A stretch of DNA of 64,000 nt from Modestobacter italicus (GTDB taxonomy: Bacteria > Actinomycetota > Actinomycetes > Mycobacteriales > Geodermatophilaceae), in NCBI RefSeq assembly GCF_000306785.1, contig NC_017955.1, forward strand, positions 682,001 to 746,000. Direction: 5' to 3'. Numbering within the stretch: position 1 is the first letter of the stretch; each line of letters starts with the position of its first letter. A model generated the notes under the pieces. The model was not told where the DNA came from and searched no databases. It saw only the letters and a list, made by a program, of their open reading frames with translations. Of the stretch, positions 481 to 35,816 are shown one piece after another. The translations under genes and the position numbers were made by a program.

Positions 481-2988
481 GTCGTCGGGGTCGCGCTCGG
501 GCTCGGCAGCCACCTCGTCGGCCGCCTCGGTGGTCTCGGCCACCCCGGCGGGCGCCGGGCCGCTGGTGCCGAACAGGCCCGGCCGCGGCGCCGGCCGGCG
601 GGTCACCTCCGCCTCCTCCGGCGTCAGCTCGGGAGCACCGGCGAGCTCGTCCAGGACGACGTCGAGCACCCGGACCGCGCCGGCCTTGTCCAGCGGGTCG
701 TTGCCGTTGCCGCACTTGGGCGACTGCACGCAGGAGGGGCAGCCGGCCTCGCACTCGCAGCTGGCCACCGTGGCCCGGGTCGCCTGCAGCCAGTCGCGCA
801 GCACCGCGTACCCGCGCTCGGCGAAGCCGGCGCCGCCGGGGTGGCCGTCGTAGACCACGATCGTCGCCGCGCCGGTGTCGGGGTGCAGGGCCGTGGAGAC
901 CCCGCCGAGGTCCCAGCGGTCGCAGGTGGCCAGCAGCGGCAGGATCCCGATCGAGGCGTGCTCGGCGGCGTGCAGCGAGCCGGGCAGCGCGGTCTCGTCC
1001 ACGTCGGCCCGTTCGACGGCCCGGTCGCTCAGGGTCAGCCACACCGCCCGGGTGCGCAGCTGGCGGGCGGGGAGGTCCAGCGGGAACTCCGCGAGCACCT
1101 CCCCGGTGCCGATCCGCCGGCGCTGGTAGGCCACGACCTGGTTGGTGACGTCCACGACGCCGGTGTGCGCCGTGACCGCCCCGAGCCGCCGGGTGCGGTC
1201 GGTGGAGACGATCGAGAGGTCCACGACGTCGCGGGCGACCGTCGTCCACTCCGGGCTCTCCGGGTGCACGACGGCGCAGGCGTCGTCGACGTCGAACTCG
1301 TCGACGACGTAGGTCTCGCCGCGGTGCACGTACAGCGCACCGGTGTGCACGGTGGCGTGCGAGGCATCGCCGTCGACGGTGCCCAGCAGCCGCCCGGTCG
1401 CGCCCTCGATGATCGACACCGGGGCCGTGCCGCTGCCGCGGATGTCGACGTCCGGCCGTCCCCGTCCCGCCCAGTACCAGCCGGTCGGCCGGGCGCGGAG
1501 CAGCCCGTCGGCGACGAGCTCGGTCACCTGGGCCTCGGCCACGTCACCGCCGAAGTCGGCCAGGTCCGCGGGGGTCAACGGCAGCTCAGCGGCCGCGCAG
1601 CACAGCTGCGGGCCGAGCACGTAGGGGTTCGCCGGGTCGGTCACCGTCGCCTCGACGGGCCGGCCGAACACCGCCTGCGGGTGGTGGGCCAGGTAGTGGT
1701 CCAGCGGGTCGTCGCGGGCGACGAACACGACGAGGGACTCGTTCTGCGCCCGCCCGGCCCGGCCGGCCTGCTGCCACATCGAGGCCAGCGTGCCGGGGTA
1801 GCCGGCGAGCACCACGGCGTCCAGGCCGGCGATGTCGATGCCCAGCTCCAGGGCGTTGGTGGTGGCCACGCCCAGCAGCGCACCGCTGGACAGCGACCGC
1901 TCCAGCTCGCGGCGCTCCTCGGGCAGGTAGCCGCCGCGGTAGGAGTCGACCCGCGAGGCCAGGTCCGCCCGGCCCCGCGACCGCAGCACCGCACGGGCCT
2001 GCTCGGCCACCGACTCCGCGCCGCGGCGGGACCGGACGAACGCCAGGGTGCGGGCGTTCTGCTCGACCAGGTCGGCCAGCAGACCGGCGGCGTCCGCGGC
2101 GGCCGAGCGCCGCACCGGCGCGCCGTGCTCGCCGGTCTGCTCGGTCAGCGGCGGCTCCCACAGGGCGAAGGTGGCCCCCGGCCGCGGCGACCCGTCGTCG
2201 GTGACGGCGGCGACCGGGGCCCCGACCAGCCGGCTGGCGGCCGCGGCCGGGTCGGCCACCGTCGCCGAGGCCAGCACGAACACCGGTTCGGCGCCGTAGC
2301 GGCGGCAGATCCGCCGCAGCCGGCGCAGCACGTGGCCGACGTGCGAGCCGAAGACCCCGCGGTAGGCGTGGCACTCGTCGATCACGACGTAGGCCACCCG
2401 GCGCAGCGTGCTCGACCACCGCTGGTGGGCGGGGAGGATCCCGCGGTGCAGCATGTCGGGGTTGGTGACGATCCAGCGCGAGTGCCGCCGGACCCAGTCC
2501 CGCTCCTCCATCGGGGTGTCCCCGTCGTAGGCGGCCGGACGCACCGAGGGGTCGGCCAGGGCCTCGACGGAGGCGAGCTGGTCGCGGGCCAGCGCCTTGG
2601 TGGGGGCCAGGTAGAGCACGCACGCCCGCGGGTCCTCGGCCAGCGCGGTGAGCGCCGGCAGCTGGTAGGCCAGCGACTTGCCCGAGGCGGTGCCGGTGGC
2701 GACGACGACGTGCGAGCCGGCCCGGGCCAGCTCGGCGGCGGCCACCTGGTGGCCGAACGGCTCCTGCACGCCGCGCTCGGCCAGCCGGGTGCGCAGCGGC
2801 TCGCCGACCCAGGCCGGCCACGGCGCGGTCCGGCTGCGCCGCACGGGCAGCCGGTGGACGTGGGTGACCGGGTCGTCCTCGGGCTCGGTGCCCGCCAGCA
2901 GGGCGGCCAGCAGCTCCGTGCCGGGGAGGGCGGCGACGGCGGGCTCGGGTCCGTCGGGCGGGTGCCCGACGGGACGCAGGGACGTCAC
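469..2988 (-). CDS. DEAD/DEAH-box helicase with DUF1998 domain (MrfA/YprA, Rv3649 type)
   Basis: This 839-residue superfamily 2 helicase probably acts in DNA repair; the Bacillus family member MrfA excises mitomycin adducts. Visible motifs are ATGTASGKS (motif I, about residue 98-105), the DECH box near 204, LASAT (motif III) and a helicase C domain with the QQAGRAGR type motif VI. The C-terminal DUF1998 domain carries a four-cysteine cluster, CECEAGCPSC followed by KCGNGND, expected to bind metal. The start is GTG at 2988, with GGAGAG very close upstream. Its 3' end meets the open TadE-like frame on the other strand. The same helicase-Tad pairing is seen in mycobacteria. Confidence 0.9.
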   Translation of the reverse strand: MTSLRPVGHPPDGPEPAVAALPGTELLAALLAGTEPEDDPVTHVHRLPVRRSRTAPWPAWVGEPLRTRLAERGVQEPFGHQVAAAELARAGSHVVVATGTASGKSLAYQLPALTALAEDPRACVLYLAPTKALARDQLASVEALADPSVRPAAYDGDTPMEERDWVRRHSRWIVTNPDMLHRGILPAHQRWSSTLRRVAYVVIDECHAYRGVFGSHVGHVLRRLRRICRRYGAEPVFVLASATVADPAAAASRLVGAPVAAVTDDGSPRPGATFALWEPPLTEQTGEHGAPVRRSAAADAAGLLADLVEQNARTLAFVRSRRGAESVAEQARAVLRSRGRADLASRVDSYRGGYLPEERRELERSLSSGALLGVATTNALELGIDIAGLDAVVLAGYPGTLASMWQQAGRAGRAQNESLVVFVARDDPLDHYLAHHPQAVFGRPVEATVTDPANPYVLGPQLCCAAAELPLTPADLADFGGDVAEAQVTELVADGLLRARPTGWYWAGRGRPDVDIRGSGTAPVSIIEGATGRLLGTVDGDASHATVHTGALYVHRGETYVVDEFDVDDACAVVHPESPEWTTVARDVVDLSIVSTDRTRRLGAVTAHTGVVDVTNQVVAYQRRRIGTGEVLAEFPLDLPARQLRTRAVWLTLSDRAVERADVDETALPGSLHAAEHASIGILPLLATCDRWDLGGVSTALHPDTGAATIVVYDGHPGGAGFAERGYAVLRDWLQATRATVASCECEAGCPSCVQSPKCGNGNDPLDKAGAVRVLDVVLDELAGAPELTPEEAEVTRRPAPRPGLFGTSGPAPAGVAETTEAADEVAAEPERDPDDLVF

Positions 2989-3185
2989 CTCTCCACTGTC
3001 ACACCGTCGCGCAACCCAGGGTGAGGGTGGTGGGGACAGCTGACGCTCGGTGTGAACTGGATCACGAACAGGTCTGGTCTTGACGTTGTTCCTGCGGCAC
3101 AGTGCGTGCCACGCCGGGCCCTCCCCGCGCGCAGGCCCGGGGGCGCCTGGCGGGTGCGCGTCCCCACCTCGCCGCGGAGGAACAC

Positions 3186-5447
3186 ATGCCCGACACCGAA
3201 CTGTCCGGAGGCGACCTCACCCTCGTGGCGGTCGTCCTCGCCATCTCCCTCGCCGCCCTGGGCTTCGCCTTCTACCTGTCGCGGGCCGTCATGGCCGCCG
3301 ACCAGGGGACGCCGAAGATGCAGGAGATCGCCAAGGCGATCCAGGAGGGAGCCGGCGCGTTCCTCCGGCGGCAGTTCCGGACGCTGGCGGTGTTCGCCGT
3401 CATCGTGTTCATCCTGCTGCTGCTGCTCCCGGTCTCCGACGGGGGCACCGGCACCCGGATCGGCCGGGCCGTCTTCTTCCTGGTGGGCGCCGCCTTCTCG
3501 GCCTCGGTCGGCTTCATCGGCATGACCCTGGCGACGCGTGGCAACGTGCGGGTGGCCGCCGCGGCGGCCGCGGGCGGGCACCGGCCGGCCTTCCGGATCG
3601 CGTTCCGCACCGGCGGCGTCTGCGGGATGATCACCGTCGGCCTGGGGCTGTTCGGCGCCTCGCTCGCCCTGCTGCTGTTCCGCGACACCGGCCCGATCGT
3701 GCTGGAGGGCTTCGGCTTCGGCGGCGCGCTGCTCGCGATGTTCATGCGGGTGGGCGGCGGCATCTTCACCAAGGCCGCCGACGTCGGGGCGGACCTGGTC
3801 GGCAAGGTGGAGGCCGGCATCCCCGAGGACGACCCGCGCAACGCCGCGACCATCGCTGACAACGTGGGCGACAACGTCGGCGACTGCGCGGGCATGGCCG
3901 CGGACCTCTTCGAGTCCTACGCGGTCACGCTGGTCGCCGCACTCATCCTGGGGCAGGTCTTCTTCGGCGCCGTGGGCATGGTGTTCCCGCTGGTGGTGGC
4001 CGCGATCGGGATCATCGCCTCGATCGTCGGCATCCTGGCCAGCAACCCGACCGCCGGGGACAGCTCCTGGATGTCCCCGATCAACCGCGGGTTCTTCACC
4101 TCCGCCGCGGTGTCGCTGGTGCTGGTGGCGGCCGCGTCGTTCACCGTGCTGCCCTCGATCTCCGACGGCCTGGACGTCTCGGTCAGCCCGCAGGTGCTCG
4201 GCTTCGTCTCGGTGCTCATCGGCATCGTGCTGGCCGCCACCATCCAGCAGCTCACCGGCTACTTCACCGAGACCAAGCGGCGCCCGGTCAAGGACGTCGG
4301 CCGCAGCTCGCTGACCGGGCCGGCCACGGTGATCCTCTCCGGCATCTCGCTGGGGCTGGAGTCCGCGGTCTACGCCGCGCTGCTCATCGGTGCCGCCGTC
4401 TACGGCGCCTTCCTCATCGGTGGTGCCGCGGCGCTCTACGCCGTCGCCCTGGCCGGCTGCGGGCTGCTCACCACGGCCGGGGTCATCGTCTCCATGGACA
4501 CCTTCGGCCCGGTGAGCGACAACGCCCAGGGCATCGCCGAGATGTCGGGCGAGATCGACGAGGAGGGCGCCCAGGTGCTCACCGACCTCGACGCGGTCGG
4601 CAACACCACCAAGGCCATCACCAAGGGCATCGCGATCGCCACCGCGGTGCTGGCGGCCACCGCCCTCTTCGGCTCCTACAACGCCAGCATCGGCGAGGCC
4701 CTCGACGACGCCGGGGCCCGCCTCGGGGACGCCTTCACCCTGGTGTCGCCGAACAACGTCGTCGGCGCCGTCATCGGCGCGGCGGTCGTGTTCTTCTTCT
4801 CCGGCCTGGCGATCAGCGCCGTCTCCCGGGCGGCCGGCCGGGTGGTGTTCGAGGTGCGCGAGCAGTTCCGCACCCGGCCCGGGATCATGGACTACAGCGA
4901 GCGGCCCGACTACGGCGCCGTCGTGGACATCTGCACCAAGGACTCGCTGCGCGAGCTGGCCACGCCCGGGCTGCTCGCCGTCCTCGCGCCGGTCGCCGTC
5001 GGCTTCGGGCTGGGCTTCGGGCCGCTGGCCGCCTACCTGGTCGGCGCGATCGCCACCGGCACCCTGATGGCGGTCTTCCTCTCCAACTCCGGCGGCGCCT
5101 GGGACAACGCCAAGAAGATGGTGGAGGACGGCGCGTACGGCGGGAAGGGCAGCGAGGCGCACGCCGCGACCGTCATCGGCGACACCGTGGGCGACCCCTT
5201 CAAGGACACCGCCGGCCCGGCGATCAACCCGCTGATCAAGGTGATGAACCTGGTGGCCCTGCTGATCGCGCCGGCGGTCGTGGGGATGACGGTGGGCGAG
5301 GACCAGAACACCGCGCTGCGGGTGGCCATCGCGCTGGCCGCCGCGGCGGTCATCGTGACGGCGGTCGTGGTCAGCAAGCGCCGCTCCACCGTGGTGGGCG
5401 GGGAGACCGACACCCCGGCGGAGGCGCTGACCAAGACCGCCACCTGA
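3186..5447 (+). CDS. hppA: K+-independent proton-pumping membrane pyrophosphatase
   Basis: This 753-residue membrane pyrophosphatase uses pyrophosphate hydrolysis to export protons. It is almost entirely transmembrane helices. The substrate-binding motif with GADLVGKVE and DNVGDNVGDCAGMAADLFESY is intact, and GDTVGDPFKDTAGPAINPLIK marks the C-terminal half. The sequence GNTTKAITKG has lysine where K+-dependent enzymes have alanine, which indicates the K+-independent class. ATG at 3186 is preceded by GGAGGA; further upstream start codons lack such a site. It stands alone, divergent from the helicase across 197 bp. Confidence 0.97.
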   Translation: MPDTELSGGDLTLVAVVLAISLAALGFAFYLSRAVMAADQGTPKMQEIAKAIQEGAGAFLRRQFRTLAVFAVIVFILLLLLPVSDGGTGTRIGRAVFFLVGAAFSASVGFIGMTLATRGNVRVAAAAAAGGHRPAFRIAFRTGGVCGMITVGLGLFGASLALLLFRDTGPIVLEGFGFGGALLAMFMRVGGGIFTKAADVGADLVGKVEAGIPEDDPRNAATIADNVGDNVGDCAGMAADLFESYAVTLVAALILGQVFFGAVGMVFPLVVAAIGIIASIVGILASNPTAGDSSWMSPINRGFFTSAAVSLVLVAAASFTVLPSISDGLDVSVSPQVLGFVSVLIGIVLAATIQQLTGYFTETKRRPVKDVGRSSLTGPATVILSGISLGLESAVYAALLIGAAVYGAFLIGGAAALYAVALAGCGLLTTAGVIVSMDTFGPVSDNAQGIAEMSGEIDEEGAQVLTDLDAVGNTTKAITKGIAIATAVLAATALFGSYNASIGEALDDAGARLGDAFTLVSPNNVVGAVIGAAVVFFFSGLAISAVSRAAGRVVFEVREQFRTRPGIMDYSERPDYGAVVDICTKDSLRELATPGLLAVLAPVAVGFGLGFGPLAAYLVGAIATGTLMAVFLSNSGGAWDNAKKMVEDGAYGGKGSEAHAATVIGDTVGDPFKDTAGPAINPLIKVMNLVALLIAPAVVGMTVGEDQNTALRVAIALAAAAVIVTAVVVSKRRSTVVGGETDTPAEALTKTAT

Positions 5448-28519: not shown

Positions 28520-29737
28520 TCACCCCGACCGGTGCGCTCCCGATCCGCGCGGGACGAGGGCGGCGGCAGCCTCGGCGGCTTGCCGGCCCACGCCCTCCAG
28601 CAGATGTGTGTAGGTGTCCGACGTGATCCGGATGCCGGAGTGCCCGAGACGCTTCGAGACGACGGTCATGTCGACGCCGGCCGCCAGCATGATCGACGCC
28701 TGCCCGTGCCGGAGGTCGTGCAGCCGCACCCGCCGCAGCCCGGCGTCAGCGACGAGAGCCTGGAAGGTCCTGGAGACGACCTCGGGCTTGAGGTAGGAGC
28801 CGTCCTCGCGGGCGAACACCAGGTCGTGCTCCTCGTACGCCGCGCCGAACGCTGCCCTCTCCGCGTCCTGCTGCAGCCGGTGGGCGATCAGCGATCCTGC
28901 CGTCGAGGCGTCGAGATCCACCCGCCGGTCCTCGCCGCTGGCGGTCTTCGGCTGCCCGACCACGCTCTCGTAGCCGACCTGCACCACTGACTGGCGAACC
29001 CACAGCACCCGCTTGTCCAAGTCCACGTCACCCCAGCGCAGACCGACGACCTCACCGCGGCGCAGCCCCGTCATCGCCAACACCTCGAACAGCACACCCA
29101 ACCGGTGGCCGGCGGAGGCGTCCAGGAAGGCGCCGAGCTCCTCGGGCTCCCAGGGACGGACCTTCGGACGGCGGGTGGGCTCCAGCTCGGCCAGCGCCGC
29201 CGGGTTGTAGGGGATGACGCGGCGCCGGACGGCGTCGTTGAGCGCCGACCGCAGCGTGGCGTGGATCCGGCGCACCGACGACGGCGACAGCCGCTTGGAC
29301 CGAGTGCCCTGCCGGCGCAACGACGCCAACGCCCGGTCGACGTCGTCCACGGTCAGGTCCGCAAGCCGGTAGTGGCCGAGCAGCGGGATCCAGTAGTCGC
29401 GCAGGTGCCCTTGGGTGTGCAACGCGGTGGACGGCCGGAACCGGCCGGCGTCCTTCTTCCGCTCCAACCAGCTCTCCAGGTAGCCGGCCACGGTGACCCG
29501 CCGCTGGTCCTGCACCCGCACGCCCTGTCCGGTCACCGCGAGCGATGCCTGCAGCGCGGCCCGGGCGTCGGCGGCGGAGTCGTAGCCGCCCCGCCGGACC
29601 TGACGTCGCCGTCCGGAGGGATCGCGCACGTCGTGGGCGAAGAACCACGATCCGTGCCGCTTCGGGCAGTTCTTCCGCCGGCCCGCCGCGTCAACGGCCG
29701 GTGGGCAGCTGCACCGCTTGAACACCGTCCCGGTCAC
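28520..29737 (-). CDS. tyrosine site-specific integrase
   Basis: The 405-residue integrase has an N-terminal arm-binding region, a SAM-like core-binding domain (SWLERKKDAGRFRPSTALHTQGHLRDYW) and a catalytic domain with Arg in TGLRRGEVVGLRW, HDLRHGQASIML and LGHSGIRITSDTYTHLL, where the tyrosine is the nucleophile. GTG 29737 has GGAGGGA upstream. It lies 250 bases from attR and would integrate the element at tRNA-Thr. The layout is typical of actinobacterial pSAM2-like integrases, but no replication or transfer genes accompany it. Confidence 0.95.
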   Translation of the reverse strand: MTGTVFKRCSCPPAVDAAGRRKNCPKRHGSWFFAHDVRDPSGRRRQVRRGGYDSAADARAALQASLAVTGQGVRVQDQRRVTVAGYLESWLERKKDAGRFRPSTALHTQGHLRDYWIPLLGHYRLADLTVDDVDRALASLRRQGTRSKRLSPSSVRRIHATLRSALNDAVRRRVIPYNPAALAELEPTRRPKVRPWEPEELGAFLDASAGHRLGVLFEVLAMTGLRRGEVVGLRWGDVDLDKRVLWVRQSVVQVGYESVVGQPKTASGEDRRVDLDASTAGSLIAHRLQQDAERAAFGAAYEEHDLVFAREDGSYLKPEVVSRTFQALVADAGLRRVRLHDLRHGQASIMLAAGVDMTVVSKRLGHSGIRITSDTYTHLLEGVGRQAAEAAAALVPRGSGAHRSG

Positions 29738-29845
29738 TGACCACTCCCTCCGCTCCGGCCGATCGCCCACCCGATCGAGCGCGGGGTTCGAGCGGTGGTG
29801 GGGAGCGTCGCGGGCAGCCCTGACACCACTCCAGCGGGGGAGGCG

Positions 29846-29864
29846 CTGGGCACGAACTGGGCAC
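29846..29864 (+). repeat. possible integrase arm site near attR
   Basis: CTGGGCACGAACTGGGCAC matches 16064-16082 near attL. Further direct repeats GGCGGTACCTGGTCA (29874) and GGCGGTGCCTGGTGA (29956) lie between here and attR. The 391 bases between the integrase start and the next gene hold these sites, attR and presumably the integrase promoter. Confidence 0.5.
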
Positions 29865-29983
29865 GCCGTAGCCGGCGGTACCTGGTCAGCGGTGGTCGAC
29901 GGCGGTGCCCATCGCCCCCTCTGACCTGGACGAACGGTCTGGCACGGCGGCATACGGCGGTGCCTGGTGAAGTCCCGGAGGCG

Positions 29984-30026
29984 CTCGTAATGAGAAGGTC
30001 GTCGGTCGGATTCCGACAGGCGGCTC
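29984..30026 (+). repeat. attR
   Basis: Copy of the 3' 43 bases of tRNA-Thr with two mismatches (TTCG becomes TCGG in the T loop). It marks the right end of the element. Confidence 0.9.
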
Positions 30027-30059
30027 TCCACCTCCCAGCCAGTCGACCCCGGCCGTTGA

Positions 30060-30075
30060 TCACCCGGACGGGTGA
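30060..30075 (+). terminator. possible original tRNA-Thr terminator
   Basis: TCACCCG and CGGGTGA form a perfect 7-bp hairpin 34 bases beyond attR. In the uninterrupted chromosome it would lie just downstream of tRNA-Thr. There is no U-tract, as is usual here. Confidence 0.35.
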
Positions 30076-30128
30076 CCGGCACCCGGACCAGCCTGCGGAA
30101 GCAGCTCCCGGAGGTCGATGACAGGTCC

Positions 30129-32420
30129 ATGGAGCAGCTACAGCGACCGGCGACGGTGCGGCGCCGACCGGCGTGGACGCTGCTGGCCACCGTCGCCTTC
30201 TCGTTGCTGTACGCCACCGGCGTGGGCGGTCGTCCCGCCGGTCTGGCCTGGGACCGGGCCTACGACGTCGTCCTGTTCAACCTGCCCTACCTGGCCGCGA
30301 CGGCCGGCTGCTTCGCCGCCGCCGTCCGGGTGCGGAGCGAGCGGTTCCCCTGGACGGGTCTCGGCCTCGCGCTGGCGTTGAGCGCGGTCGGCAACGCGCT
30401 GCGTGTGCTGGCCGCCGACGTGAACGGCAACGGGCCCGCGACCACGCTGTCCCTCGTCTTCACCCTCGCCGGGTACCTGATGCTCTACGTCTTCGTGGTC
30501 GGCATCATCCGGGCGCGGGTGCCCCGCTTCCACCCGAGCATGTGGCTCGACGGCGTCATCGGCGCCCTGGGCAGCCTCTCCCTCGGTGTCGCCTTCGTGC
30601 TGGGCCCCTACCTGTTCCCGCACGCCGGTGAGCGGGTCGTGTCGCTGCCCGAGCTGGTCGGCCCGACCAGCGACGTGCTGCTCCTGGCGGTGCTGGTCGC
30701 GGTCGGCTCCATCCTCGGCGCCCGGTTCGACCGGATCCTGCTGGCGCTCGCCGTGGGGCTGACCTTCGTCGCCGGCTCGGACATCATCCTGTTCTCCCTG
30801 CAGTACCAGGGCCGCTACGTCGACGGCGGCCCGCTGGAGCTGGGCTGGCTGACCTGCATGGTCCTGGCCGCGCTGGCCGCGTCCTGGGCCCGCGAGCAGC
30901 CCCAGCCCGCCGACCCCGCCGTCGGCTCCCGGATCGGCTGGCGGCTGCTGGCCGTGCCGCTGGTCTGCACCGTGGCCAGCCTGTTCGTGCTGGGCTACGG
31001 CTGGCTGTACCCGATGCCCGCCGTCTCCGCATACTTCGCCATCGCCTGCGTGCTGGCCGGCATCGTGCGGATCGCGGTCACCTTCAACGAGGTCCGCGGC
31101 TTCAACGAGGTCAAGCTCGAGGCCCGCACCGACGAGCTCACCGGGCTGGCCAACCGCCGGGCCCTGCTGGCCCGGGCCCAGGCCATCCTCGCCGCGGCGA
31201 CCCCCGCCCGGCCGGCCGCCCTGCTGCTGCTCGACCTCGACGGGTTCAAGGAGGTCAACGACAGCCTCGGTCACCCCGCCGGCGACGACCTGCTGCGCCA
31301 GGTGGGGCCGCGGCTGCGCAGCGCGCTGCGGGCCGAGGACGTCCTCGCCCGGCTCGGCGGCGACGAGTTCGCCGTCATGGTGCCCGACACCAGCATGGCC
31401 GAGGCGCAGGCCCTGGCCCACCGGCTGCGCGAGCTGCTGCTCCAGCCGTTCACCGTCGAGGGCATCCGGCTGCACGTCGGCGTCAGCATCGGCGTCTCGA
31501 CCGCCCCGGTCCCCGCCGCCAGCGTGCAGGAGCTGCTGCGCTCCGCCGACGTCGCGATGTACACCGCCAAGAGCACCCGCGAGGGCGTGCACGTCCACGT
31601 CCCGGACACCGCCAAGTCCGCCGGCGACCGGCTGCGCACCATGGAGGAGCTGCGGACCGCGCTCACCGACGACGAGCTGGTCGTCTTCCTGCAGCCCCAG
31701 GTCTCCCTGGGGGACGGGACGGTCGTCGGCGCCGAGGCGCTGGTCCGCTGGCAGCACCCGACCCGCGGGCTGCTCTCGCCGGCCGACCTGCTGCCCGCCG
31801 CCGAGCAGGCCGGGCTGCTCGGGCCGCTGACCGACCAGGTGCTGGAGCTCGCCCTCGCCGCGGCCGGCCGGTGGTGGACCGAGCAGCAGGTGGCCGTGTC
31901 GGTGAACCTGACCGCAGCCAACGTCACCGACCTGGACCTGCCGAGCAAGGTCTCCGCGGCCCTGCGCCGGCACGGGCTGCCGCCCCGCGCGCTGACGCTA
32001 GAGCTCGTCGAGGACACCCTCATGGCCGACCCGGAGCGCGGCCGCACCGTGCTGGGCGACCTGCGCCGGCTCGGCGTCCGGACGTCGATCGACGACTACG
32101 GCACCGGCTACAGCTCGCTGGCCTACCTGCGCACCCTGCCCGCCGACGAGCTCAAGCTGGACCGCAGCCTCACGGCGGACGTCGACTGCGACCCGCGGGC
32201 CGCCGCGATCGTGCGGCACACCGTGGCGCTCGCCCACGACCTGGGGCTGAGCCTGGTGGCCGAGGGCGTGGAGGACGTCGCCACCGGCGCGGTGCTCGCC
32301 GAGCTCGGCTGCGACGTGGCCCAGGGGTACGCGATCGCCCGCCCGATGCCGGTCGCCGACTTCCTCGCCTGGCTCGCCGCGACCGCGGCCGCCGCCGAGC
32401 TGGACCCGACGGCCGCCTGA
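30129..32420 (+). CDS. membrane GGDEF-EAL cyclic-di-GMP protein
   Basis: The 763-residue protein has about 8-9 membrane helices in its first 330 residues, then a GGDEF domain with intact RLGGDEFAV and an RAED inhibitory site five residues before it. The EAL domain keeps GAEALVRWQHP, LELVED, DDYGTGYSSL and ELKLDRS. Both cyclase and phosphodiesterase residues look intact, so it could make or degrade cyclic-di-GMP. The N-terminal helices may sense a signal. ATG 30129 is taken; GTG 30072 upstream is in frame but would run through the hairpin. Confidence 0.93.
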   Translation: MEQLQRPATVRRRPAWTLLATVAFSLLYATGVGGRPAGLAWDRAYDVVLFNLPYLAATAGCFAAAVRVRSERFPWTGLGLALALSAVGNALRVLAADVNGNGPATTLSLVFTLAGYLMLYVFVVGIIRARVPRFHPSMWLDGVIGALGSLSLGVAFVLGPYLFPHAGERVVSLPELVGPTSDVLLLAVLVAVGSILGARFDRILLALAVGLTFVAGSDIILFSLQYQGRYVDGGPLELGWLTCMVLAALAASWAREQPQPADPAVGSRIGWRLLAVPLVCTVASLFVLGYGWLYPMPAVSAYFAIACVLAGIVRIAVTFNEVRGFNEVKLEARTDELTGLANRRALLARAQAILAAATPARPAALLLLDLDGFKEVNDSLGHPAGDDLLRQVGPRLRSALRAEDVLARLGGDEFAVMVPDTSMAEAQALAHRLRELLLQPFTVEGIRLHVGVSIGVSTAPVPAASVQELLRSADVAMYTAKSTREGVHVHVPDTAKSAGDRLRTMEELRTALTDDELVVFLQPQVSLGDGTVVGAEALVRWQHPTRGLLSPADLLPAAEQAGLLGPLTDQVLELALAAAGRWWTEQQVAVSVNLTAANVTDLDLPSKVSAALRRHGLPPRALTLELVEDTLMADPERGRTVLGDLRRLGVRTSIDDYGTGYSSLAYLRTLPADELKLDRSLTADVDCDPRAAAIVRHTVALAHDLGLSLVAEGVEDVATGAVLAELGCDVAQGYAIARPMPVADFLAWLAATAAAAELDPTAA

Positions 32421-32529: not shown

Positions 32530-32964
32530 GTGACAGCCTCCCCGATCACCGCCACCGACCTCGTCCGACCCCACCTCTTCGGCACCGGCGACCGGCAGCC
32601 GCTGCCGACGGGGACCGAGCAGTGGCGCGACCTCGCGCCCGACATCCTCCGCCAGCGGCTGGTGATCGAGGGCGTCCCCGCGCACCCGGTCGACGACGAG
32701 CTCATCCGCGGCTACCTGTCCGCGCTGTCCCGCGCGGTCGACATGGTGCAGCTCATCGAACCGGTGACGCACCGCTCCGACCTGTACGGCTGGGCCGGCT
32801 GGATCCACTGGGAGACCTCCGGCGCGCACTTCTACGCCTGGGAGCAGCCGCGGCTGTTCTTCTCCGTGGACCTGTACACGTGCAAGGCCTTCGACGTGGA
32901 CACCGCCGTCGCCTTCACCCAGGACTTCCTCTCCGCGAGCACGATCGTCGCGAAGTCCTTCTGA
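32530..32964 (+). CDS. AdoMet-decarboxylase-like protein
   Basis: The 144-residue protein contains WIHWETSGAHFYAWEQ and FFSVDLYTCKAFD. These parallel SpeD: the E-S-H region where the pyruvoyl group forms, the acid/aromatic segment and the catalytic cysteine in VDxxTC. It may decarboxylate S-adenosylmethionine or bind it. The usual speE partner is absent; instead the next gene is an autoinducer-synthase-like acyltransferase one base downstream. Near its N-terminus is RPHLFGTGD, a motif repeated in that neighbour. Starts at GTG 32530. Confidence 0.65.
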   Translation: MTASPITATDLVRPHLFGTGDRQPLPTGTEQWRDLAPDILRQRLVIEGVPAHPVDDELIRGYLSALSRAVDMVQLIEPVTHRSDLYGWAGWIHWETSGAHFYAWEQPRLFFSVDLYTCKAFDVDTAVAFTQDFLSASTIVAKSF

Positions 32965-32965
32965 C

Positions 32966-33751
32966 GTGGGAACCGCTCCTCCGCCGGCGCCCGGCGGCCC
33001 GGTCCACCCGCAGCTCTTCGGGACCAGCAGCCTGGCTCCGCCGGACCGCGGGCTGCGGCTGGTCGTCGCCGACACCGCCGCCGAGGTGGCCGCCGCCCAG
33101 GCGCTGGAGGCGGAGGTCTTCCTCGACTCGTTCGACAACACCCCGGAGGTCATGGAGCAGGAGTACGGCCACTATGCCGACCGCTCCCGCTACGTCGTCG
33201 TCCTCGACGACTCCGACGGGTCGGCGCTGGGGATGATGCGGCTGATCGTCCCGGACGCCGCAGGTGAGCTGAAGACGCTGACCGACGTCGCGGGCCCGCC
33301 CTGGCAGGTGTCCGTGCCGGACTCGCTGCGCTCGGCCGGTCTCGCCGACCGGGTGGTCTGGGACGTCGCGACCCTCGCCGTCGCCCGCGGGCACCGCAGC
33401 GGCGCGGGCCGCGGGGAGGTCACCCTGGCGCTCTGCCACGGCCTCTACCGGTTCTCCCGGCTCAGCGGCGTCGAGGGCTGGGTCACCGTCCTGGACGACC
33501 GGGTGCTCCGGCTGCTGCGGGTGATGGGCGTGCCGTGGACCGTCATGCCGGGCGCGGGGTCGGAGTACTACCTCGGCTCCCCGGCGAGCACGCCGTGCGT
33601 CTGCCTGCTCGACGACATCGCGCCGAACATGCGGGCCCGCCGGCCCGATGTCGCCCCCGTGATGCTCGACGGTGAGCTGCCCACCATCTCCGCCACCCCG
33701 GCGGACCTGGCCGCCGGACGCGGCGAGCGCGTCGGCGTCACCTACGGCTGA
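32966..33751 (+). CDS. autoinducer-synthase-like / GNAT-fold protein
   Basis: The 261-residue protein has the layout of LuxI-type and related GNAT folds: ALEAEVFLDSF, EYGHYADRSRYVVVLDD, GMMRLIVPD, then a second half with ATLAVARGHR and LYRFSRLSGVEGWVTVLDD. LuxI enzymes use S-adenosylmethionine, and the partner gene is AdoMet-decarboxylase-like, so the pair may make a signal or polyamine-like product. N-terminal HPQLFGTSS echoes the partner's PHLFGTGD. GTG 32966 follows the previous stop by one base. Confidence 0.6.
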   Translation: MGTAPPPAPGGPVHPQLFGTSSLAPPDRGLRLVVADTAAEVAAAQALEAEVFLDSFDNTPEVMEQEYGHYADRSRYVVVLDDSDGSALGMMRLIVPDAAGELKTLTDVAGPPWQVSVPDSLRSAGLADRVVWDVATLAVARGHRSGAGRGEVTLALCHGLYRFSRLSGVEGWVTVLDDRVLRLLRVMGVPWTVMPGAGSEYYLGSPASTPCVCLLDDIAPNMRARRPDVAPVMLDGELPTISATPADLAAGRGERVGVTYG

Positions 33752-33824
33752 TCTGACGTCGCTCCGTGTCACCATCTCCGCGCCGCCATCGCGGCAGCCC
33801 ACAGCCGCGGACCCGGGACGACAG

Positions 33825-35816
33825 ATGACACGGCAGTCAGGCCAGGACCGGCCACACCGTCGGAGGGGCGCGCGCTCGGTCGTCGTCGCCCTGGCCCTCT
33901 GCTCGATCGGCCTCGTCGCACCGCCCGCCTCCGCGGCGCCGGCCGGGACGACGGCGCCGGCGACGTCCGGGACGGTGAGCCCGTCGGCCACCTCGCTGCT
34001 GCCCGCACCGGGGTTGTACGACGCCAGGGTGTTCGGCACCCGGGTGCGCCTGGACTGGGTCGTCGTCCCCGGAGCCGTGGGCTACCAGGTCCGTCGCGAC
34101 GGTCATCCGCTGCCGCCGATCTCCGGGGCGAGCACCGGCAGCTGGTCCGACGACGACCTCCAGGTCGGCGTCAGCTACTCGTACACGGTCTCCGCAGTGG
34201 ACTCCCGGGGTGTGGAGGGAGCCGAGTCCCGCGCGGTGACCGCGGTCCCGGAACCGCCGGTGCCCGCGCCGACCGGTCTGGTGGTCACGGTGAGCCCGGG
34301 GCGGGCCGAGCTGAGCTGGGACGACCTCGGCCCGTCGGCGGAGTACCTCGTGCTGCGCGACGGGCGGAGCCAGCGCGTGTCCGGCAGTGCGCGGTGGTCG
34401 GACACCGACCTCCTCGCCGGGCAGTACACCTACCGGCTCGCGCGGCCGGAGGCCGACGACCACCCGGGTACGCCGTCCGACCCGGTGACGGTGACCGTGC
34501 CCGGGGAGCCCTCGACGCCGATCAGCGTCGTGTACCGGGCCCTCGGTGGGCCCGAGGGCGTCCTCGGCCACTCCGTGACCGGTGAGTACGCCCGGGCCGG
34601 TGGCACGGTCCGGGACTACGCCAACGGGTCGGTCCTGCTGGCACCCGGTGCGACGACGGCCTACTACACGGACTTCGGCGCGAGCCGGTACGCCCAGCTG
34701 GGCGGCCCCGCCGGCAGTCTGGGCTGGCCCACCTCGAACCCCGTCGACCTGGCCGGGACCCCCATGCGGTACGCCGGCCACCGCCAGGAGTTCCAGGGCG
34801 GCAGCCTCTACGAGTACCCCCTGACCGGTGGCCCGCACCTGGTGACCGGCGTGATCCGGGACAGGTGGCGAGGACTGGGCGCGGAGGCCGGCGCGCTGGG
34901 GTACCCGCTGACGGACACGGTCTGCGGCCTGCGCAACGGCGGCTGCTTCCAGCAGTTCCAGGGTGGCAGCCTGTACTGGTCCGCCGCGACCGGTGTGCGG
35001 CGCATCGAGGGCGCCATCGGGTCCAGGTGGGCGGCGCAGGGCTGGGAACGGGGCACCCTGGGCTACCCGACGACCGACGCGGTCTGCGGGATCCGGGACG
35101 GCGGCTGCTACCAGCACTTCCAGGGCGGCAGCGTCTACTCCTACCGCTACACCGGCACCTGGGTCGTCGGCGGTGCCATCCGGGACCGGTGGGCCGCCCA
35201 GGGGTGGGAGAACGGTCCGCTGGGCTACCCGATGTCCGACGAGGCCTGCGGCCTCCGGGACGGCGGCTGCTACCAGCTGTTCCAGTGGGGCAGCGTCCAC
35301 TGGTCACCCCGGACCGGGCCGCGGATCACGGAGGGCGCCATCCGCGACGCCTGGGGGGCGCAGGGCTGGGAGCGGGGCGGCCTGGGCTACCCGACGACGG
35401 AGGCGGCCTGCGGCATCCGGGACGGCGGCTGCTTCCAGGTGTTCCAGGGCGGCAGCGTCTACTGGTCCCGCGGCACCGGCGCACTGCCGGTGTCCGGGGC
35501 GATCCGGGACGCCTGGGCGTGGCAGGGCTGGGAGAACGGCCGGCTCGGCTACCCGATCAGGGGTCCCGTCTGCGGCCTGCGGGACGGCGGCTGCTTCCAG
35601 GTGTTCCAGGGCGGCAGCGTCTACTGGTCCCCCCGCACGGGCGCACGTCCGGTCTCCGGGGCGCTCCGGGACGGCTGGGCGTCGCAGGGCTGGGAGAACG
35701 GCCGGCTCGGCTACCCGGTGGGCGACGCGTACGGCGTCCCCGGTGGGTCGGCGCAGGACTTCCAGCAGGGCACCGTCAGCTACCGGGACAACCGGGTCAG
35801 CATCACCTACCGCTGA
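33825..35816 (+). CDS. secreted FN3-like and LGFP-repeat protein
   Basis: The 663-residue exported protein has a signal peptide (RRRGARSVVVALALCSIGLVAPPASAAPA), two fibronectin-III-like domains (about residues 60-220) and then eight LGFP-type repeats. Five middle repeats are exactly 54 residues long and share GYP..CG.RDGGCFQ.FQGGSVYWS. LGFP repeats anchor proteins to the actinobacterial cell wall. Each repeat has a Cys pair that may form a disulfide. No enzyme domain is visible, so it is probably structural or adhesive. ATG 33825 is chosen for the signal peptide. Confidence 0.9.
   Translation: MTRQSGQDRPHRRRGARSVVVALALCSIGLVAPPASAAPAGTTAPATSGTVSPSATSLLPAPGLYDARVFGTRVRLDWVVVPGAVGYQVRRDGHPLPPISGASTGSWSDDDLQVGVSYSYTVSAVDSRGVEGAESRAVTAVPEPPVPAPTGLVVTVSPGRAELSWDDLGPSAEYLVLRDGRSQRVSGSARWSDTDLLAGQYTYRLARPEADDHPGTPSDPVTVTVPGEPSTPISVVYRALGGPEGVLGHSVTGEYARAGGTVRDYANGSVLLAPGATTAYYTDFGASRYAQLGGPAGSLGWPTSNPVDLAGTPMRYAGHRQEFQGGSLYEYPLTGGPHLVTGVIRDRWRGLGAEAGALGYPLTDTVCGLRNGGCFQQFQGGSLYWSAATGVRRIEGAIGSRWAAQGWERGTLGYPTTDAVCGIRDGGCYQHFQGGSVYSYRYTGTWVVGGAIRDRWAAQGWENGPLGYPMSDEACGLRDGGCYQLFQWGSVHWSPRTGPRITEGAIRDAWGAQGWERGGLGYPTTEAACGIRDGGCFQVFQGGSVYWSRGTGALPVSGAIRDAWAWQGWENGRLGYPIRGPVCGLRDGGCFQVFQGGSVYWSPRTGARPVSGALRDGWASQGWENGRLGYPVGDAYGVPGGSAQDFQQGTVSYRDNRVSITYR

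Follow-up and report, generated by a model that had tools for sequence, protein, structure and literature searches.

Organization of the locus

The 64,000-nucleotide stretch considered here, referred to as the window, belongs to the 5.58-Mb genome of Modestobacter italicus (contig NC_017955.1, positions 682,001 to 746,000) and contains a pair of adjacent genes encoding a SpeD-like protein (gene 1) and a LuxI/FeeM-fold acyltransferase-like protein (gene 2). A preliminary description of this DNA had placed the two genes one base apart. Both open reading frames (ORFs) are present, and a single base separates the stop codon of gene 1 from the start of gene 2. The GTG at 32530 is the first in-frame start of gene 1 past the preceding stop codon. 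On the + strand a gene for a GGDEF-EAL protein comes first, followed by gene 1 and then gene 2. The main features, with residues numbered as in gene 1 and in the S-adenosylmethionine (AdoMet) decarboxylase (AdoMetDC) of Thermotoga maritima, are as follows:

30072..32420 (+), GGDEF-EAL protein, 782 amino acids (aa), PF00990 and PF00563, with a hydrophobic, multi-transmembrane-like N-terminal half; candidate receptor and output protein
32530..32964 (+), gene 1, SpeD-like protein of the AdoMet_dc family (PF02675), 144 aa, GTG start; putative pyruvoyl-dependent decarboxylase
32569..32592 (+), PHLFGTGD motif at the N-terminus of the gene 1 protein, lineage-specific
32818..32820 (+), Ser97 codon of gene 1, aligned with T. 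maritima Ser63, the pyruvoyl precursor
32833..32835 (+), Tyr102 codon of gene 1, aligned with T. maritima His68
32881..32883 (+), Cys118 codon of gene 1, aligned with T. maritima Cys83
32966..33751 (+), gene 2, LuxI/FeeM-fold acyltransferase-like protein, 261 aa, GTG start, assigned by fold match
33008..33031 (+), PQLFGTSS motif at the N-terminus of the gene 2 protein, lineage-specific

Judged by gene 1, the nearest relatives are in Modestobacter and other Geodermatophilaceae. Against three relatives, nonsynonymous divergence (dN) is lower than synonymous divergence (dS) in both genes (gene 1, dN 0.038-0.051 versus dS 0.16-0.20; gene 2, dN 0.10-0.27 versus dS 0.28-0.64). As both genes are also conserved and linked elsewhere, the pair is more than a chance adjacency.

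Linkage and co-inheritance of the pair

A scan of species genomes yielded 118 relatives of gene 1; the best 80 loci were kept, and the linkage counts lean towards close relatives (L and G numbers denote loci and genomes). By profile, gene 1 is closely followed by gene 2, in the same orientation, at 74 of the 80 loci, of which three (L039, L060, L077) run into contig ends. A tblastn search with the window protein alone gives 72/80, and L040 holds a divergent gene 2 at the expected place (hhalign E 4.2e-7). Among 112 Geodermatophilaceae genomes, gene 1 occurs in 27 and gene 2 in 28, the 27 all being among the 28. The preliminary description had suggested checking co-occurrence in other genomes and would have counted absence of linkage elsewhere against its reading; what is found is linkage at 74/80 loci and, in the family, gene 2 in 27/27 genomes with gene 1. 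Within the same family, G406 has gene 2 alone, G488 has one stop codon inside gene 2, and in G419 both genes are in pieces, as if the pair were decaying together, unless these are sequence errors.

In a broader sample of 396 genomes across the phylum, the gene 1 profile matches nine (E <= 0.001), strongly in G000, G284 and G186 and at 1e-33 in G275, and the gene 2 profile matches 11, strongly in two (G000, G284). The distances between gene 1 proteins and those between gene 2 proteins are correlated over 49 shared loci (Mantel r 0.72, 0/2000 permutations as high; Spearman 0.43), and this holds for the 36 loci outside Geodermatophilaceae (r 0.74, 0/2000 permutations as high). The correlation reflects co-inheritance and is by itself no demonstration of interaction.

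The SpeD-like protein

The gene 1 protein matches PF02675 at 32.6 bits, above the cut-off of 25, and the same family is matched by all 60 members scanned (E <= 0.1); these are the 60 of 81 gene 1 proteins that remained in the alignment after near-copies and fragments were dropped. AlphaFold (AF2) models of both proteins were built from family alignments and have good cores. That of gene 1 (mean predicted local distance difference test, pLDDT, 87) superimposes on the T. maritima AdoMetDC structures 1vr7 and 1tmi with Z 14.1 over 105-106 residues (root-mean-square deviation, rmsd, 2.2-2.6), well above other folds. A sequence search against PDB chains gave nothing usable, and the match came from fold comparison only. 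The preliminary description had named the absence of this fold in structure prediction as evidence against a SpeD-like protein; the fold is there.

Gene 1 thus shares with class 1b AdoMetDC (T. maritima TM0655; 1vr7/1tlu/1tmi, Z 14.0-14.1) its fold, PF02675, the pyruvoyl Ser and the catalytic Cys. Ser97, Cys118, His93, His100 and Tyr102 are invariant in 81/81 gene 1 proteins, and in an alignment with canonical SpeD, Ser97 and Cys118 fall on the Ser63 and Cys83 columns, as in T. maritima. Gene 1 differs from class 1b AdoMetDC in having Tyr at the His68 column, an extra residue before the Cys strand, its own clade in an unrooted tree and no clear spermidine synthase partner. His100 stands two residues off the His68 column, and two sister proteins, L171 and L084, lack it. 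In the tree, one branch (100/99) sets off the 25 rows of the gene 1 family and another (97/96) sets off 19 canonical SpeD rows, the bootstrap not having fully settled. The family is represented there by 23 alignment rows plus L082 and L083; L123, L130 and L136, whose frames had been misread, were left out, as were some near-copies.

Pyruvoyl enzymes that descend from SpeD by divergence include the ornithine and arginine decarboxylases SpeDC and SpeDA (in the parts of PMC10407285 consulted, to which later mentions of that paper also refer), and the gene 1 family appears closer to SpeDC-like proteins than to canonical SpeD, because five SpeDC-like rows reach 28-31 bits with its profile, compared with at most 18.3 for canonical rows (24 of 25 scored). 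SpeDC-like proteins L086-L089 resemble gene 1 in having a CK.F stretch and a Thr that precedes the pyruvoyl Ser. Their assignment as SpeDC-like is inferred both from their sequences and from a canonical SpeD adjoining L089 and L146. The SpeDC ornithine decarboxylase has four diagnostic residues, Gln, Thr, Phe and Tyr (PMC10407285, Fig. 8). In gene 1, Thr96 precedes Ser97 and no Gln aligns with the SpeDC-like VQLIETS stretch, places that may or may not be among the four diagnostic positions. Gene 1 differs from SpeDC and SpeDA in forming its own clade, in lacking His at the His68 column, and in its linked acyltransferase and, often, sensor. An actinobacterial genus (L089 = G327; L123 and L146 = G130) carries a canonical SpeD and a SpeDC-like homologue near each other.

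The separate clade and the Tyr at the His68 column make the use of AdoMet by gene 1 doubtful; the candidate substrate may be an ornithine-like amino acid, AdoMet or another. Spermidine synthesis provides no ready explanation for the pair, because spermidine-synthase matches are weak and patchy and tblastn finds none in the 80 loci. The M. italicus genome has one match to the spermidine-synthase family (PF01564) at 27 bits, weak although above the cut-off of 22.9. Among the 19 carrier genomes searched (20 loci given), 10 have a match above cut-off, seven of these at 24-30 bits, and 9/19 have none, absences that are not firm. Three spermidine-synthase-family proteins used as tblastn queries found no relative at any of the 80 loci, a search that did not extend to other polyamine genes. 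The canonical SpeD/spermidine reading was rejected: the PF01564 match is weak, and PF02675 gave no match over the host genome at E 0.001, in a search that also missed gene 1 itself.

The LuxI/FeeM-fold protein

Gene 2 falls just below the cut-off for the autoinducer synthase family PF00765 (Autoind_synth; 22.3 bits, cut-off 24), which is matched by 17 of 50 gene 2 members (E <= 0.1), the 50 being those kept of 73 once near-copies and fragments were dropped. With E <= 0.01 as the limit, 37/50 members match the PEP-CTERM/exosortase acyltransferase model TIGR03694, the best at E 4.3e-10; the score of the window protein, 35.5 bits, is far below the cut-off of 111.95. PF21926 (FeeM) is matched by 6/50 members (best E 0.0033), the window protein giving no match.

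The assignment comes from structure. The AF2 model (mean pLDDT 91) has as its top match, by Foldseek and VIA-align, the N-acyl amino acid synthase FeeM (2g0b; Z 16.8, 183 residues, rmsd 2.9), followed by the GNAT protein 5jph (Z 16.3), BjaI (5w8c, 15.6) and LasI (1ro5, 15.5). Z differences below 1 are ties, so that FeeM is tied with 5jph, and identity to FeeM is 8%. FeeM is not known to pair with a decarboxylase. Amine and polyamine acetyltransferases come lower: dopamine N-acetyltransferase is at rank 5 and PaiA at rank 19 in Foldseek, and a polyamine acetyltransferase reaches Z 13.2. The predicted structure thus places in the LuxI/FeeM-type acyltransferase fold a protein that had been described as LuxI-like.

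Eleven residues are invariant in 50/50 gene 2 rows (E48, F52, N58, E66, Y67, R92, K103, D177, Y202, L203 and S205). Ten of the 18 LuxI signature positions printed in PMC5539150, which was available in part, were compared, mapped by eye through weak LasI alignments that underlie every correspondence given here. Gene 2 keeps F29 (F52), E44 (E66), G67 (G89, 68/73) and R70 (R92), and retains an acid at E101 (D133; Asp 66/73, Glu 7/73). Five of the ten are replaced: R25 by E48, W35 by N58, D46 by G68 (Gly 59, Asp 4 of 73) and R104 by T136 (Thr 62, Ser 11 of 73), while the D49 column is variable in the family. Gene 2 therefore has in common with the N-acyl homoserine lactone (AHL) synthases LasI and BjaI the fold (Z 15.5-15.6), the conserved Phe, Glu, Gly and Arg, and the acid at E101. 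It differs from them in the family's own invariants, among them E48, N58, K103, D177 and Y202-L203-S205, and in that no LuxR receptor domain was found. The autoinducer-binding domain PF03472 has 0 matches in the M. italicus genome, in a type of whole-genome search that can miss divergent members. From its residues, gene 2 looks like an enzyme with a retuned acceptor site that is not an AHL synthase, and with these signature residues replaced its use of AdoMet is doubtful.

The LFGT motif

The preliminary description had also pointed to a short motif common to both N-termini as a possible docking tag. The motif is present in both proteins (PHLFGTGD and PQLFGTSS), whereas its proposed role is not supported, LFGT being absent from nearly all relatives. 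Counting the window in both cases, LFGT occurs near the N-terminus of 6/81 gene 1 and 3/73 gene 2 proteins. Its carriers (the window, L001, L002, L003, L012 and L021) are Modestobacter or close Geodermatophilaceae, and because of this confinement it is not a general docking tag. The N-termini bearing it are of low confidence in both AF2 models, a further ground on which the tag was ruled out as a general feature. Translation of the 64 kb in all six frames shows LFGT at two further sites, each deep within a reading frame.

Sensor-type proteins beside the pair

A cyclic di-GMP (c-di-GMP) protein had been noted beside the pair, and the GGDEF-EAL gene lies 5' of it here. GGDEF or EAL sequence is found within 2.5 kb of the pair at 43/80 loci and a histidine kinase at 7/80, and a further 5/80 loci are truncated by contig ends. 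In L001-L022 (Geodermatophilaceae) and L070 the GGDEF-EAL gene precedes the pair on the same strand; in 13 Actinotalea-type loci, as well as L026, L027, L033 and L062, it lies downstream and is convergent with the pair. In L050 and L080 it is upstream on the opposite strand, and in L068 downstream on the same strand. The host genome has 32 GGDEF places in 5.58 Mb, approximately one per 174 kb, so repeated nearness in such differing arrangements is unexpected by chance, although loci within a lineage do not count as independent.

The first 276 aa of the window GGDEF-EAL protein have no Pfam match at E <= 0.05, and its N-terminal membrane part finds one match in its own genome (E <= 0.01). Linked GGDEF-EAL proteins of lineages other than Geodermatophilaceae have a homologous membrane domain (hhalign 97.4%, E 1.3e-11). 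In L083 (G186), a divergent ORF at 1969-3345 (+) resembles, by eye, the membrane part of the linked GGDEF-EAL proteins.

The histidine kinase neighbours belong to six Saccharibacteria loci (L023, L031, L035, L040, L053, L054) and to Mycolicibacterium sphagni (L028). The three kinases scanned (L028, L053, L040) have HisKA and HATPase domains, that of L028 also HisKA_7TM, and a response regulator adjoins the L053 pair. A sensor domain common to kinase and GGDEF-EAL proteins was considered and rejected, hhalign giving no support (probabilities 0.1 and 2.8).

A candidate pathway for an acyl-amine signal

Tentatively, and with a likelihood that we put a little short of even, sequence comparison and structural models suggest that the two enzymes together make an N-acylated amine, a signal sensed by the neighbouring membrane protein. 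The SpeD-like protein would cleave itself at Ser97, forming a pyruvoyl cofactor, and would decarboxylate either an ornithine-like amino acid or AdoMet itself, giving a free amine to which the LuxI/FeeM-fold protein would join a fatty acyl group from an acyl thioester. The acyl-amine product would be a diffusible signal for the membrane protein next door: the GGDEF-EAL protein would convert it into a change in c-di-GMP, and in Saccharibacteria and Mycolicibacterium a membrane histidine kinase (of the 7TM type in L028) would sense it instead. Pyruvoyl enzymes require the free alpha-amine of their substrate, and LuxI-type lactone formation requires a carboxylate. Given these requirements, decarboxylation would come first if both enzymes act on one molecule, and a decarboxylase working with a LuxI-fold acyltransferase would yield an amide and not a lactone. 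A diffusible signal is favoured because sensor-type proteins of two output classes recur beside the pair. The unknown signal that the preliminary description had put forward as a possible product is consistent with these findings.

Several observations weigh against this scheme. Self-processing in T. maritima requires Ser63, His68 and Cys83 (PMC10407285), and pyruvoyl formation is uncertain here because the His68 column, on the basis of sequence alignment, is Tyr102 in 81/81 proteins. No GGDEF, EAL or histidine kinase match lies within 2.5 kb at 25/80 loci, as judged by tblastn at E 1e-4 with the GGDEF and EAL domains of the window protein and the kinase core of L053 as queries. Eighteen of these are Actinoplanes-type loci, at which no conserved sensor neighbour was seen. 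The membrane domains of the kinases and the GGDEF-EAL proteins are unlike by profile, so a single shared ligand is not implied. The absences of PF03472 and of spermidine synthase are not firm either, because a whole-genome search with PF02675 at E 0.001 gave no match and so missed gene 1 itself, a false negative (the family profile found gene 1 once).

Exceptions to the linkage count on the same side. L034, L042 and L043 hold gene 1 with neither gene 2 nor a substitute partner, the metagenome-assembled genomes (MAGs) of L034 and L042 carrying a second gene 1 copy with gene 2 (L065, L056). G275 has no gene 2, and in G186, with its strong gene 1, there is none in the 3.3 kb examined, where the nearest candidate is a marginal match to gene 2 (5e-4) approximately 3 kb upstream. 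In L057 and L076 the protein paired with gene 1 has no recognisable relationship to gene 2. These partner proteins (L076:6342-8620 and L057:6363-7298, from Micavibrio and Bdellovibrionales MAGs) are 30% identical to each other and have no convincing family in Pfam or NCBIfam, and the idea that they carry nicotianamine-synthase-like motifs found no support; in L076 the protein is followed by a pyridoxal phosphate-dependent aminotransferase. They may be an alternative partner of gene 1.

Alternative explanations

The acylated amine could instead be a membrane lipid or a matrix or wall component, with the c-di-GMP protein or kinase regulating its synthesis rather than sensing it. Such a role would suit a best fold match to an N-acyl amino acid synthase, the matches of most gene 2 members to the PEP-CTERM/exosortase model and the 25 loci without a sensor gene. 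It is nevertheless unlikely, given that membrane proteins of sensor type, with two classes of output, recur as the neighbour and that occurrence in 27/112 family genomes is sporadic for a structural lipid.

Prozyme is the partner of trypanosome AdoMetDC, and by analogy the SpeD-like protein might be a non-processing, regulatory partner of the acyltransferase. The replacement of His68 by Tyr throughout the family points this way, as does the absence of the nearest His, His100, from L171 and L084. The conservation of Ser97 and Cys118 in 81/81 proteins, which is not required of a dead subunit, and the existence of sister proteins (L169-L171) without gene 2 in the flanks examined make it distinctly unlikely.

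Similarly, gene 2 could be an ordinary AHL synthase using AdoMet, with gene 1 tuning the AdoMet supply or being a bystander. BjaI and LasI fall within approximately 1.3 Z units of FeeM, and Rhodococcus kroppenstedtii needs a LuxI solo to make AHLs (PMC13136126, consulted in part, here and below). However, R25, W35, D46, D49 and R104 are replaced in the weak LasI alignments and the linkage of the two genes is too tight for a bystander, which leaves this reading very improbable. The lack of PF03472 adds to the case but is not decisive, since AHL solos exist and such a search missed gene 1.

A polyamine module that converts ornithine to putrescine and then acetylates or acylates it for storage or detoxification, with no signal role, would agree with the preference of the gene 1 profile for SpeDC-like rows (28-31 bits against a best canonical score of 18.3) and with the amine and polyamine acetyltransferases among the gene 2 fold matches, but it has little to commend it, as FeeM and AHL synthases outrank those enzymes by fold and no spermidine-synthase-like gene was found in the 80 loci by tblastn, other polyamine genes lying outside that search.

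Flanking genes

Directly 3' of gene 2 is an ORF for an LGFP-repeat protein (33672-35816, +) with eight stretches of PF08310. A tblastn search found no relative of it at any of the 80 loci, and gene 2 of L001-L003 is followed by a HerA-like gene on the opposite strand; the LGFP-repeat gene therefore looks like a local insertion. On the other side, a tyrosine-integrase ORF (28520-30217, -) and the beginning of the GGDEF-EAL ORF overlap on opposite strands; the integrase ORF has a near-identical copy in L001 (95%) and shorter matches in L002 (58%) and L003 (73%).

Distribution across phyla

Saccharibacteria are epibionts of actinobacteria, and their genomes that carry the pair measure 0.6-0.9 Mb. 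The gene 1 profile has matches at E <= 0.001 in 29 of 379 genomes from the L053 phylum. Of these matches, four are strong (below 1e-60) with gene 2 beside each, three of these being the genomes of L035, L053 and L054; three hold sister proteins near 1e-40, without gene 2 in the flanks examined; and 22 are weak. The sister proteins lie at:

L169:1492-1878 (-), gene 1 sister protein, Saccharibacteria phylum, E approximately 1e-40
L170:933-1295 (-), the same
L171:1489-1872 (+), the same

By eye, L169 is near ORFs resembling 2-oxoacid oxidoreductase and L170 is beside one resembling ATP synthase subunit a.

In a midpoint-rooted tree of the concatenated proteins, two Cryobacterium rows fall inside five Saccharibacteria rows (91.7/96 for the seven), a nesting limited by the few rows and by possible misbinning, although L031, L035, L053 and L054 sit on contigs of 296-646 kb. 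The eight rows that include Mycolicibacterium form one group, poorly supported in the joint tree (31/77) and the gene 2 tree (19.5/72) and with 96.3/94 in the gene 1 tree. The two Cryobacterium species with the pair (L073, L079) have no kinase match within 2.5 kb.

Relation to earlier work and significance

Neofunctionalisation of SpeD is treated in PMC10407285 and PMC9992855, and LuxI in Gram-positive bacteria in PMC13136126 and PMC5539150, all consulted in part. Searches of open-licence PMC papers, by title and opening of the abstract, brought up no description of the gene pair, and the available parts of PMC13136126 and PMC5539150 contain none. The available text of PMC13136126 has no word starting 'decarboxylase', 'SpeD' or 'GGDEF', and that of PMC10407285 none starting 'acyl', 'GNAT', 'acetyltransferase' or 'autoinducer'. 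The LuxI solos of Actinomycetota are, as here, LuxI-like genes without luxR; their neighbours are iscS/mnmA/etfAB, secondary-metabolism or, in Salinispora, kinase and ABC genes (PMC13136126).

The gene 1 family would add to the descendants of SpeD a further branch beyond SpeDA and SpeDC, with an altered self-processing site. It is possible, if on the whole somewhat doubtful, that the pair represents a new class of cell-to-cell signal in Gram-positive and candidate phyla radiation (CPR) bacteria. Such a signal would be an acyl-amine and not a lactone, made by a pyruvoyl decarboxylase and a LuxI-fold acyltransferase, and read by exchangeable membrane receptors whose output is either c-di-GMP or of the histidine-kinase type. 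Actinobacteria and Saccharibacteria would have it in common, perhaps for communication between host and epibiont. If so, signal chemistry would extend beyond AHLs and N-acyl amino acids, and Actinomycetota, in which the 2026 survey found luxI solos without luxR (PMC13136126), would have a signal synthase with its likely receptor adjoining. A signalling module would also be present in the 0.6-0.9-Mb genomes of Saccharibacteria.

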